A program made the translations under genes and the position numbers. Positions 4,879-9,790 of a stretch of 12,178 nt of DNA are shown piece by piece. The notes beneath the pieces are model-generated. The model saw nothing but the letters and a program-made list of their open reading frames with translations, was not told the DNA's origin and did not search any database. The stretch is from Actinomycetota bacterium (GTDB taxonomy: Bacteria > Actinomycetota > Acidimicrobiia > IMCC26256 > PALSA-610): positions 1 to 12,178 of the forward strand of contig JAUZEI010000357.1 of the NCBI GenBank assembly GCA_030839105.1, in the 5' to 3' direction. Every line of letters starts with the position of its first letter. Within the stretch, counting starts at the first letter, position 1.

Positions 4879-4908
4879 ACGGTATCCGCGAGACTCCCCG
4901 GTCGTGAA
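4879..4908 (-). promoter_or_regulatory. Weak promoter candidate for the aldolase-amidohydrolase-ligase operon
   Basis: On the minus strand TTCACG (4908-4903), an 18-base spacer and TACCGT (4884-4879) resemble -35 and -10 boxes. Transcription would begin around 4872, inside the annotated start region, which fits only if translation begins at the GTG at 4871. The -35 match lies in the first copy of the 14-base repeat shared with the divergent gene, so both transcription units meet in a 54-base gap. Confidence 0.25.
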
Positions 4909-4945
4909 GGTCGCTCGGTGAAGGTGGCTCGGTGAAGGTGCTCGT
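4904..4945 (+). repeat. Three 14-base direct repeats forming overlapping mini-ORFs up to the NmrA-like start
   Basis: The copies are GTGAAGGTCGCTCG (4904-4917), GTGAAGGTGGCTCG (4918-4931) and GTGAAGGTGCTCGT (4932-4945); the third is the first codons of the gene and differs by a one-base deletion. Copies 1 and 2 each encode V-K-V-A-R followed by TGA. Each TGA (4919-4921, 4933-4935) overlaps the next GTG as GTGA, so the second mini-ORF ends on the start codon of the NmrA-like gene. Copy 2 also supplies an AAGGTGG ribosome-site-like stretch five to eleven bases before that start. Confidence 0.85.
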
Positions 4946-5732
4946 GATCGGCGCAACCGGTGAGCTCGGGCGCGAGGTCGCGTCCATCCTCTGGGAGAGG
5001 CCCGGCGTTCAGGTGCGGGCGTTCGTGCGCCGGCCGCTTACCGCCGAAAGCCCGCCGGTCGACGAGGTCGTCACCGGCGATCTGCGGGATCGCGATTCTC
5101 TGCGGAACGCGTGCGCGGGCATGAGGACCATGTTCCTCGTCTCCTCGCCGACGCAGGACCAGGTGGAGCTCGAGACCAACGCGATCGAGGCCGCGGAAGC
5201 GGCGGGCGTCGAGAGGATCGTCAAGGTCTCGAACATCCCGCTCCCCGGACTCGACACCGGTCTGCACGGCAACCATCGGGCCGTCGAACGCAGGCTCGCG
5301 GCGTCGAGATGCCGGTCGACCATCGTGCAGCCGTCGTTCTTCTCCAGCGTCCTCGACAAGCAGGGCGACGTCGTTGCGCGCGGTGCAGTGGTCTTGCCGA
5401 CCGGGCCGGGCAAGATCGCGTGGATCGACCCCTTCGACATCGCGGCGGTGGCGGCCGAGGCACTGGTGCGTTTCGACCTCGACGGGCCGCTGCATCTCAC
5501 CGGCCCCGACGCGCTCGACGGCGACGAGGTCGCGGCCCGGTTGGGTGTGAAGCGCATCGACCTGCCCCTCGACAAGTGGCGCGCAACGGTCGTCGCGTCC
5601 GGGCTCGATCCGTGGCTCGCGGATTCGAGCGTGCACCTCTTCGAAGCAGTCGCACGGGGCGCGCTCGCGCAAACGACGGACACCGTCGAGAGCGTGCTCG
5701 GCCGGCCGCCCCGGCGCGTGTTCGAGCGTTAG
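4932..5732 (+). CDS. NmrA-like NAD(P)-binding protein (atypical short-chain dehydrogenase)
   Basis: The product has 266 residues. It opens with KVLVIGATGELG, the GxxGxxG nucleotide-binding turn of a Rossmann fold (residues 2-13), followed by an acidic strand end VVTGDLRD (46-53), IVKVSNIPLPG (96-106) and IVQPSFFSSVL (131-141). The order matches NmrA/quinone-oxidoreductase-2-like atypical SDRs. The classical YxxxK catalytic pair is absent, as usual in that group, so it may be a redox sensor or a reductase acting on small quinones or ketones. The C-terminal T.TVESVLGRPPR is also typical. The GTG at 4932 begins the Rossmann strand directly and is the last GTG of a 14-base repeat relay. The gene is divergent from the aldolase operon and its TAG stop interlocks with the TAA of the opposing carboxylesterase. 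A link to the neighbouring catabolic genes is possible but not shown. Confidence 0.87.
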   Translation: MKVLVIGATGELGREVASILWERPGVQVRAFVRRPLTAESPPVDEVVTGDLRDRDSLRNACAGMRTMFLVSSPTQDQVELETNAIEAAEAAGVERIVKVSNIPLPGLDTGLHGNHRAVERRLAASRCRSTIVQPSFFSSVLDKQGDVVARGAVVLPTGPGKIAWIDPFDIAAVAAEALVRFDLDGPLHLTGPDALDGDEVAARLGVKRIDLPLDKWRATVVASGLDPWLADSSVHLFEAVARGALAQTTDTVESVLGRPPRRVFER

Positions 5733-7193: not shown

Positions 7194-8486
7194 GTGCCGG
7201 GCGCAGTGATCGTCGGCACCCAGTGGGGCGACGAAGGCAAGGGTCGGGTCACCGACTATCTCGCCAAGGAGTCGTCAATGTGTGTCCGCTATCAGGGCGG
7301 CCACAACGCGGGCCACACGCTCGTGGTCGACGGCGAGGTCTTCAAGCTCCAACTCGTGCCGAGCGGGATCCTGTATCCGTGGGTCGTGCCGGTCATCGGG
7401 AACGGCGTCGTCGTCGATCCCGCCGTGCTGATCGACGAGGTCGACATGCTCGAGGGCAAGGGCGTCGACACCCGCCTCCTGCGCCTCTCCGGCAACGCGC
7501 ACCTGATCATGCCGTACCACCAAGAGCTCGACCGGATGACCGAGCGTTACCTCGGGAAGAACAAGCTCGGAACCACGAAGCGCGGTATCGGTCCGGCCTA
7601 TGCCGACAAGGCATTGCGCGTCGGCATTCGCGTCCAGGACCTGCTCGACCCGAAGATCTTCCGCGAGAAGCTCGACCTCGCATTGCGCGAGAAGAACGGC
7701 GTGTTGGCGAAGGTCTACAACCGGCTCCCGATCGATGCCAAGGAGCTCGCGGACCGCTATCTCGCGATGGTCCCGCGCCTCGCGCCCATGATCGACGACA
7801 CCGTGCACCTCGTGCACGAAGCGCTCGACGCACAGCAGTGGGTGTTGTTCGAGGGCGCGCAGGCGACGTACCTCGACCTCGACCACGGCACCTATCCGTA
7901 CGTGACATCGAGCAACCCCATCGCGGGAGGGGTGTGCACCGGCGCGGGCGTGGGTCCGCTCGCGATCCAGCGCGTGGTCGGACTCGTGAAGGCGTATCAA
8001 ACACGCGTCGGCAGCGGTCCGTTCCCGACCGAGCTCTTCGAAGGCGACGCGGTCGGCGACATGCTCGTCGAGCGCGGCCGCGAGTTCGGTACGAACACCG
8101 GACGTCGGCGGCGTACGGGTTGGCTCGATCTCGTCATGCTGAAGCATGCGGTCCGTCTCAACACGTGCACCGAGCTCGCGCTCACGAAGCTCGACATCCT
8201 CTCGCCGCTCTCCGAGTTGAAGGTGTGCGTCGCGTACGAAGGTGAGGACGGCACGCGCTACGACCACGTGCCGTATCACCAGTCGGTGCTGCACAAGGTG
8301 AAACCGGTGTACGAGACGCTGCCGGGATGGGAAGTCGAGATCGAGAGGGTCGGCCGGCTCGAAGACCTGCCGCCGTGCGCGCGCGACTACGTGCGCTTCG
8401 TCGAGGACTTCGTCGGCGTGCACGTGAGCATCGTCGGCGTCGGTCCGGCTCGCGATCAGACGATCGTGCTTCCCCGCGCCGCGTGA
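7194..8486 (+). CDS. purA: Adenylosuccinate synthetase
   Basis: PurA joins IMP and aspartate using GTP to make adenylosuccinate, the first step from IMP to AMP. The 430-residue length is normal. Key motifs are all present: [10 protein letters not shown] (8-17) with catalytic D13, GGHNAGHT (35-42) with H41, KRGIGPAY (129-136), [20 protein letters not shown] (219-238) continuing to SSN, the segment [14 protein letters not shown] (299-312) that contacts IMP and aspartate, and [11 protein letters not shown] at the end for guanine binding. GTG at 7194 follows a strong ribosome site and places the glycine-rich loop at the usual distance from the N-terminus. It is the first gene of the purine operon, and its TGA is the entry point of the GTGA repeat leading to purD. 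Confidence 0.98.
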
Positions 8487-8514
8487 ACGGGTGATCGGGT
8501 GATTGGGTGAGCAC
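8483..8514 (+). repeat. 8-base GTGA repeats forming a chain of 3-codon mini-ORFs between purA and purD
   Basis: The units are GTGAACGG (8483-8490), GTGATCGG (8491-8498), GTGATTGG (8499-8506) and GTGAGCAC (8507-8514), the last being the start of purD. The first GTG overlaps the purA TGA (8484-8486). Each of the first three units reads GTG-NNN-GGG/NGG-TGA as a 3-codon ORF (V-N-G, V-I-G, V-I-G) whose TGA overlaps the next GTG: TGA at 8492-8494, 8500-8502 and 8508-8510. The last TGA lies on the purD start codon. No good ribosome site precedes purD, which fits dependence on translational coupling. Confidence 0.88.
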
Positions 8515-9790
8515 TCGCGTTCTCGTCGTCGGCGCCGGTGGCCGCGAGCATGCCCTCGCATGGGGTTTGGCGCGTTCGCCGCTCGTCGACGACATCGTCT
8601 GCGCGCCCGGCAATCCCGGCATGGCGACGATCGGTGAGTGCCTGCCGGTCGCGCCGACCGATCCCGCCGCGGTCGCCGACCTCGCGACGAAGCTGGACGC
8701 CGATCTCGTCGTCGTCGGCCCGGAAGACCCCTTGGTCGCGGGAGTCGTCGACGCGGTCGCGGCGTCGGGTCGCAAGGCGTTCGGTCCGAGCGCCGCCGCC
8801 GCAAGGCTCGAAGGCTCGAAAGCGTGGATGAAAGACGTGTTGATCGAGGCGGGGGTGCCGACCGCGCGCTACGGGACGTTCGGGTCCGGCCAGGAACCGG
8901 AAGCGCTCGACTTCTTGCAGACGTTGCCGGGCCTCTACGTCGTGAAGACGGATGGACTCGCGGCGGGCAAGGGCGTCGTCGTGACCGAGTCGATCGCCGA
9001 GGCACGCGATGCGGTGCGCGCATATCTCTCTGGTGTCGCGTTCGGTGATGCCGGCCGCACGTGCGTGATCGAAGAAGGGCTGACCGGCCCGGAGGTCTCG
9101 TTGTTCGCGCTCTGTGACGGGCGGCGCGCCCGCGCCGTCGCCACCGCGCAGGACCACAAGCGGGCGTTCGACGGCGACGCCGGCCCCAACACCGGTGGCA
9201 TGGGCGCATACTCACCGGTGCCCTTCGTTGACGCCGGCGTGGTCGACGAGCTGATGGAGCGGGCGCTCGTCCCGACGCTGGCCGAGCTCGACCGTCGCGG
9301 TGCTCCGTTTCGCGGCACGCTGTTCTGCGGGATCATGCTGACGCCCGACGGCGCGAAGGTGCTCGAGTACAACGTGCGGTTCGGCGATCCTGAATGTCAG
9401 GTGGTCGTGCCGCGCCTCGCGAGCGACCTGTTCGCGCACCTGTCGGAGTCGGCGTCCGGTGATCTCACGACGCCGGTCGAGCTCTCCGACATCGCGTGCG
9501 TCGGTGTGGTGCTCGCCTCCGAGGGCTACCCGCCCGCACCCGAGCGCCGGGGAGACGTCATCGCCGGCATCGACCGAGGAGGCGCGCACGAGGGCGTGGT
9601 CGTGTTCCAATCCGGCACCGCGACCGACGACCGGGGCGACGTCGTGACGAACGGCGGCCGCGTGCTCACGGTCACCGCCGTGGGAGCCGACGTGAGTGAG
9701 GCGCGCGACCGGGCCTATGCCGCGGCGGCCGAGATCTCGTGGCCCGGCGTCCACTACCGTCGCGACATCGGCGCTCAGGCCCTCCCGTGA
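8507..9790 (+). CDS. purD: Phosphoribosylamine-glycine ligase (GAR synthetase)
   Basis: PurD condenses 5-phosphoribosylamine with glycine using ATP, the second step of IMP synthesis. The 427 residues show the ATP-grasp layout: VLVVGAGGREHALAWGL (5-21), APGNPG (33-38), VGPEDPL (70-76), KTDGLAAGKGV (147-157), the region FDGDAGPNTGGMGAYSP (221-237), and LEYNVRFGDPE (286-296) with metal- and ATP-binding residues. GTG at 8507 is the only start that leaves the first beta strand intact; the frame has a TGA at 8492-8494 just upstream. The end overlaps purB by GTGA. Cytoplasmic and complete. Confidence 0.98.
   Translation: MSTRVLVVGAGGREHALAWGLARSPLVDDIVCAPGNPGMATIGECLPVAPTDPAAVADLATKLDADLVVVGPEDPLVAGVVDAVAASGRKAFGPSAAAARLEGSKAWMKDVLIEAGVPTARYGTFGSGQEPEALDFLQTLPGLYVVKTDGLAAGKGVVVTESIAEARDAVRAYLSGVAFGDAGRTCVIEEGLTGPEVSLFALCDGRRARAVATAQDHKRAFDGDAGPNTGGMGAYSPVPFVDAGVVDELMERALVPTLAELDRRGAPFRGTLFCGIMLTPDGAKVLEYNVRFGDPECQVVVPRLASDLFAHLSESASGDLTTPVELSDIACVGVVLASEGYPPAPERRGDVIAGIDRGGAHEGVVVFQSGTATDDRGDVVTNGGRVLTVTAVGADVSEARDRAYAAAAEISWPGVHYRRDIGAQALP

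Follow-up and report, generated by a model that had tools for sequence, protein, structure and literature searches.

The window, that is, the whole 12,178-nucleotide stretch of DNA analysed here, belongs to a 3.48-Mb draft genome (hereafter G000; 691 contigs, 74% complete) and carries, in this order on the + strand, purA, purD, purB and purC. The purD/purB and purB/purC junctions are single GTGA overlaps, at positions 9787 and 11094, as the preliminary description of this DNA had reported, and both are likewise single overlaps in the related genomes G008, G009 and G010. At the purA-purD junction direct overlap of stop and start codon is absent: the two genes lie 20 nt apart, and only the mini-ORFs between them overlap. 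Positions 8483-8510 read GTGAACGG GTGATCGG GTGATTGG GTGA, three full 8-bp units followed by the purD start; continued with the first piece of purD, the interval reads GTGAACGG GTGATCGG GTGATTGG GTGAGCAC. The following features were identified around this interval:

7194..8486, +: purA, adenylosuccinate synthase, stop codon TGA at 8484-8486 (TIGR00184, 529 bits, cut-off 395.55; open reading frame)
8483..8494, +: mini-ORF 1, GTG AAC GGG TGA, its GTG sharing a 4-nt GTGA with the purA stop (reading frames)
8491..8502, +: mini-ORF 2, GTG ATC GGG TGA (reading frames)
8499..8510, +: mini-ORF 3, GTG ATT GGG TGA, its stop overlapping the purD GTG (reading frames)
8483..8510, +: tandem array, period 8, 3.5 copies (Tandem Repeats Finder)
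8498..8504, +: GGTGATT, Shine-Dalgarno-like, ending 2 nt 5' of the purD start codon (duplex energy)
8507..9790, +: purD, phosphoribosylamine-glycine ligase, GTG start (TIGR00877, 470 bits, cut-off 288)

The three full units share the pattern GTG-NNN-GGG-TGA, with the TGA of each overlapping the next GTG. GTGA thus occurs four times in the array (8483, 8491, 8499 and 8507), the first instance holding the purA stop and the last being the purD start, and GGTGA stretches are present within it. Rereading of the sequence recovered the coordinates, frames, 3-codon ORFs and TGA/GTG overlaps from purA to purD exactly as first described. The four 8-base units of that description stand as regards period and GTGA starts, but only three are full, the supposed fourth (GTGAGCAC) lacking the closing GG.

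Such a chain is rarely produced by chance, a point that the preliminary description had proposed to simulate: a chain reaching purD arose in 0.2% of shuffles of the purA-purD gap. Searched with at most one mismatch, GTGANYGGGTGA has three matches in the window, all of them in the purA-purD array, against 0.49 expected, and 2 of 200 shuffles reach three. A 21-bp pattern taken from the array (at most two mismatches) occurs at one place in the 3.48-Mb assembly, with no match for the reversed control. A dispersed repeat or mobile element is ruled out for the purA-purD array, which occupies a single place in the genome.

Copy number of the array among relatives

Comparison of four genomes of the genus revealed different copy states at the purA-purD junction. 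In G008 and G010 (PurD identity 84% and 82%) the junction reads GCCGC GTGAGC, a bare overlap; in G009 (PurD identity 93%) it reads GCCGC GTGAGCGG GTGACCGG GTGAGC, with two units. Unit counts are therefore 0 in G008, 0 in G010, 2 in G009 and 3 in G000. At the sequence level, these relatives show that the array arose by tandem duplication from one ancestral GTGA overlap between purA and purD, in agreement with the earlier proposal of an expansion in 8-bp steps that leaves the overlaps intact; no unit breaking the GTG/TGA overlap was seen in G009, the sole relative with units.

The purA-purD junction could be read in 54 of the 58 genomes of the order, with purA upstream of purD in 53 of the 54. 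These junctions comprise bare overlaps and short or longer gaps, and the array is present in G000 and G009 only, ruling it out as a general feature of purA/purD. Because G008 and G010 have a bare overlap and the array is absent elsewhere in the order, the 8-bp expansion can be placed in the lineage of G000 and G009. Assembly error is unlikely, since a separate assembly (G009) shows a different copy number at the same place. A PurD scan of named genomes returned mostly distant relatives. A phylum-wide repeat was also rejected: GTGANNGGGTGANNGGGTGA was found in 11 of 396 genomes of the phylum, including that of the window, and its reversed control gave 4 matches in 1 genome.

The five full units of G000 and G009 carry A, T, T, G and C at position 5 and C, C, T, C and C at position 6, the remaining six positions being invariant. 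Four-fold sites differ between the two genomes at 64 of 268 positions in purD and 49 of 252 in purA; given this divergence, the constancy of so short an array is not informative on its own.

Serial mini-ORFs at other junctions

A second chain lies within the same window, upstream of an NmrA-like gene:

4904..4935, +: two 14-bp copies of the NmrA-like gene start, GTGAAGGTCGCTCG and GTGAAGGTGGCTCG (Tandem Repeats Finder, frames, relatives)
4932..5732, +: NmrA-like NAD(P)-binding protein, target of the second chain (PF13460, 70.5 bits; PF05368, 56.5 bits; both above cut-off)

Each 14-bp unit is an ORF of 5 codons that ends on a TGA overlapping the following GTG. The 14+14 chain is present in G000 and G009, and its relay is intact in G009 despite units only 71% alike; G008 has no chain and one copy of the start. 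Comparable chains occur at further junctions in the genus, and the arrangement is not restricted to purA-purD. Between an AMP-ligase and a CoA-transferase III gene (CaiB-like, PF02515), G000 and G009 carry GTGAGTGG GTGAGCGGGTC GTGAGCGGG, with steps of 8+11, G008 carries GTGAC GTGACCGGG, with a step of 5, and G010 has a bare GTGA. Between a Zn-ribbon gene and RNase H, 8+8 chains are found in G010 (GTGACGCC twice) and G008 (GTGACACT GTGACCCT), and G000 has a bare GTGA; a search for RNase H in G009 did not find it. At the junction of a short-chain dehydrogenase (SDR) with a HAD gene, G008 carries GTGAGCTC twice (8+8), G010 spans the gap with TAATG plus one 3-codon ORF and G009 with a single 13-codon ORF that begins at TTGA; in G000 there is an open TTG overlap. 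In G057, from another family of the order, an M20 peptidase gene is joined to the ATG of a B12-binding gene by three copies of GTGAGACC followed by GTGAG (8+8+8+5). This last chain, with its final step of 5 bp, and the RNase H chain of G008, on a short, N-containing contig, failed the coding flag, and both were inspected manually. The survey added a 17+17 case in G008 (L240), single duplications of 11 bp (L261) and an 8-bp case in G001 (L371). As searches with 8-bp patterns were what led to the CaiB and RNase H loci, the 8-bp steps there do not count as independent support for that period; no selection on period was involved for the 11- and 5-bp steps at CaiB, for L240, L243 and L261 or for the NmrA chain. 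Divergence among the units of the RNase H and NmrA chains has left every GTGA in place. Conservation of the internal GTGA is below significance: changes affect 0 of 8 such sites and 6 of 16 others (one-sided P 0.059). In G006, the Zn-ribbon/RNase H junction (L339, on G006:C49) holds a short ORF that begins at a GTGA overlap and terminates on TTGA just before RNase H; this may be a one-step relay.

A survey of 1.24 Mb of DNA from the genus, comprising 1059 genes and 562 same-strand pairs as defined by our own codon-usage gene caller rather than by annotation, yielded 83 gapped pairs (an NTGA stop followed by a gap of 4-80 nt); the CaiB junction of G009 (L219), with a predicted gap of 0, falls outside this set. 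At least two serial mini-ORFs bridge 9 of the 83 pairs, against 0.38 expected by shuffling, 0.77 by dinucleotide shuffling and 1.83 by rotation. When the two purA/purD junctions are set aside, 7 are seen vs 1.55 by rotation (Monte Carlo P 3.5e-5, Poisson 0.0011). Bridges of one relay show no excess among the 83 gapped pairs, with 11 against 9.3-10 expected. Wrong-frame chains gave 0 and 1 multi-relay pairs vs 9, a control to which we attach no weight because NTGA starts favour the true frame; the shuffles and the rotation provide fairer nulls. In 0.4 Mb of G001, which represents a different genus within the family, at least two relays were seen in 1 of 30 gapped pairs (0-0.22 expected), a difference in the same direction from too few pairs to conclude. 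Apart from purA/purD there are seven multi-relay bridges, and five of them have equal steps (L240, L243, L260, L262 and L274; 17+17, 8+8, 11+11, 14+14 and 20+20), mostly with little sequence repeat beyond the TGA. By its translation, L262 resembles a release-factor-1 to prmC junction.

Step lengths and periods were also compared. Across 11 loci with duplicated NTGA starts, the duplication length was 2 mod 3 at eight, in frame at three and 1 mod 3 at none (P 0.009 and 0.012), in a tally that pools several scans, is partly post hoc and leaves out L221, a 15-bp ATGA repeat that does not lie at a predicted start. Order-wide, CGTGA triples received the coding/coding junction flag in 4 of 22 arrays at period 8 (L283 not counted), in 0 of 5 at period 7 and in 0 of 30 at period 9, where 30 of 81 matches were read; the period comparison gives P 0.019, and 0.13 without the two purA/purD places.

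Period-8 GTGA arrays also lie away from gene junctions. Those not flagged as coding/coding junctions make up 18 of 22 in the order search and 11 of 13 in the phylum search, the two flagged among the 13 distinct arrays read in the phylum being that of the window and L161, in G079. In G009 (L285, on G009:C341), an 8-bp GTGATCGC array stands behind a gene stop and does not reach the next gene start. Two genomes of another actinobacterial family, G150 (L155) and G193 (L156), carry period-8 GTGA-N4 arrays, constant in GTGA, with no coding/coding junction seen by the codon-usage measure; L156 has five units in which the other bases vary. Arrays of the L156 type, sitting where no junction is seen, indicate that GTGA constancy can arise without a relay, and since no gene start is reached at L285 and no junction is seen at L155 and L156, the repeat alone is no proof of function.

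Proposed translational coupling and alternative readings

Termination-reinitiation at 4-nt ATGA/GTGA overlaps has already been described in PMC6728339 and PMC10666635; according to the latter, such coupling is strong when genes overlap by 4 nt and almost gone once they are about 20 nt apart. Given that loss, the 20-nt gap between purA and purD would need either a bridge or a start signal of its own. Every step of the array has the geometry of a 4-nt overlap junction, as did the ancestral purA/purD junction, and each step taken singly would be ordinary, already known overlap coupling; the array differs in having three successive overlaps within 28 bp, with 3-codon ORFs between them.

The reading we consider most likely, and hold tentatively, is that the array acts as a relay through which purD translation stays coupled to that of purA across the 20 nt. 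A ribosome finishing purA would reinitiate at the overlapping GTG, make a 3-residue peptide, stop on the next GTGA and repeat the cycle until purD, the chain of overlapping mini-ORFs restoring the 4-nt geometry at every step. Duplications of 3n-4 bases (5, 8, 11, 14 or 17) would be the kind that leaves the relay intact and, because the unit lengths seen fit this series, copy number could vary with coupling kept. The copy ladder with its retained overlaps, the recurrence at other loci and the excess of multi-relay bridges all appear to support a relay; counting against it, serial reinitiation should shed ribosomes at each step. Our confidence in the relay as a function was lowered by the arrays without a junction in the phylum search.

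The rival we take most seriously is ribosome binding, in which the GGTGA(TY) stretches pair with the 16S tail as a Shine-Dalgarno array, giving purD its own binding site and making the mini-ORFs by-products. The duplex between the 16S tail and a 16-nt segment whose end lies 2 nt upstream of the start codon, computed for the array only at the stretch before purD, has an energy of -12.8 kcal/mol in G000 and -10.3 in G009, vs +0.6 in the array-free G008; -10.3 is also reached by the CaiB chain of G000. The GG of the unit, which a relay alone would not need, is invariant in all five full purA/purD units, and the peak of GGAG, GAGG and AGGA about 9-13 nt upstream of gapped starts indicates that the genus uses Shine-Dalgarno signals. 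As GGGTGATYGG is a strong anti-Shine-Dalgarno complement, a point overlooked in the preliminary description, purD might initiate on its own. Yet GGTGA lies at position -9 in only 2 of 255 gapped starts, and values close to the inside-gene mean of -4.3 are obtained for the RNase H chains (-3.8), the HAD chain (-5.1) and the CaiB chain of G008 (-3.8). Since these lack a match, pairing with the 16S tail is not the common trait of the chains and may have been added at purA-purD, where GGTGATY copies at the usual Shine-Dalgarno distance may contribute to purD initiation alongside a relay; as the sole explanation of the array, we regard ribosome binding as unlikely. A functionless origin through slippage, with short tandem duplications merely tolerated beside the purA stop, would account for the period-8 arrays off junctions and for L285, whose units follow a stop without reaching a start. 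It fits poorly with multi-relay bridges above all three nulls, with the predominance of 2 mod 3 among NTGA start duplications and the absence of 1 mod 3 (the partly post hoc tally), and with junction-flagged arrays at period 8 as opposed to periods 7 and 9, and we rate it, too, as rather improbable. Much further down in probability is an attenuator, in which repeated ribosome loss at the mini-ORFs would put purD output below the level of a bare overlap: a passage of PMC8708949 reports that minigenes can increase or decrease translation downstream, according to their distance, and that very short ORFs can be toxic via peptidyl-tRNA drop-off, but no sequence mark suggests that purD needs less product than its neighbours.

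If the relay holds, a tight gene overlap could be stretched without loss of coupling; relatives with two or no copies suggest that the join between linked genes can lengthen without breaking the ribosome hand-over. With copy states of 0, 2 and 3 inside one genus, the question is directly testable by reporters, and if ribosomes do step through the chains, these would constitute a natural minimal test of repeated termination-reinitiation within 30 nt. A wider and more doubtful reading of the sequences is that serial mini-ORF relays are an evolvable form of coupling in this lineage, 3n-4 start duplications being retained since ribosomes would step through ORFs of 2 to 5 codons, and copy number acting as a heritable dial of operon stoichiometry.

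Mycobacterial interspersed repetitive units (MIRU) are described in a passage of PMC12548453 as repeats whose own ORF is coupled at -4 nt to those on either side. They are the closest precedent, and by its frames the array shares the -4 nt arrangement. MIRU units are dispersed, apparently mobile and tens of bases long, whereas the array has 8-bp units, stands at one place in the genome and belongs to a set of chains with their own unit sequence at each locus; with two MIRU features absent, the array would work like a MIRU junction without being a MIRU. Apart from the MIRU passage, no description of serial start/stop relays of 5-17 bp was found in the open-access literature searched. Regulatory minigenes such as the txe leader and ler, two-codon or very short ORFs that alter downstream translation (passage of PMC8708949), likewise lie close to a start codon; unlike the array, they are neither tandem nor serially overlapping between two operon genes. 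Outside the order, the array of L161 reads GTGACGGG GTGACGGG GTGATGAG in a 9.2-Mb actinobacterial genome and barely passes the junction flag, making it a possible relay there.
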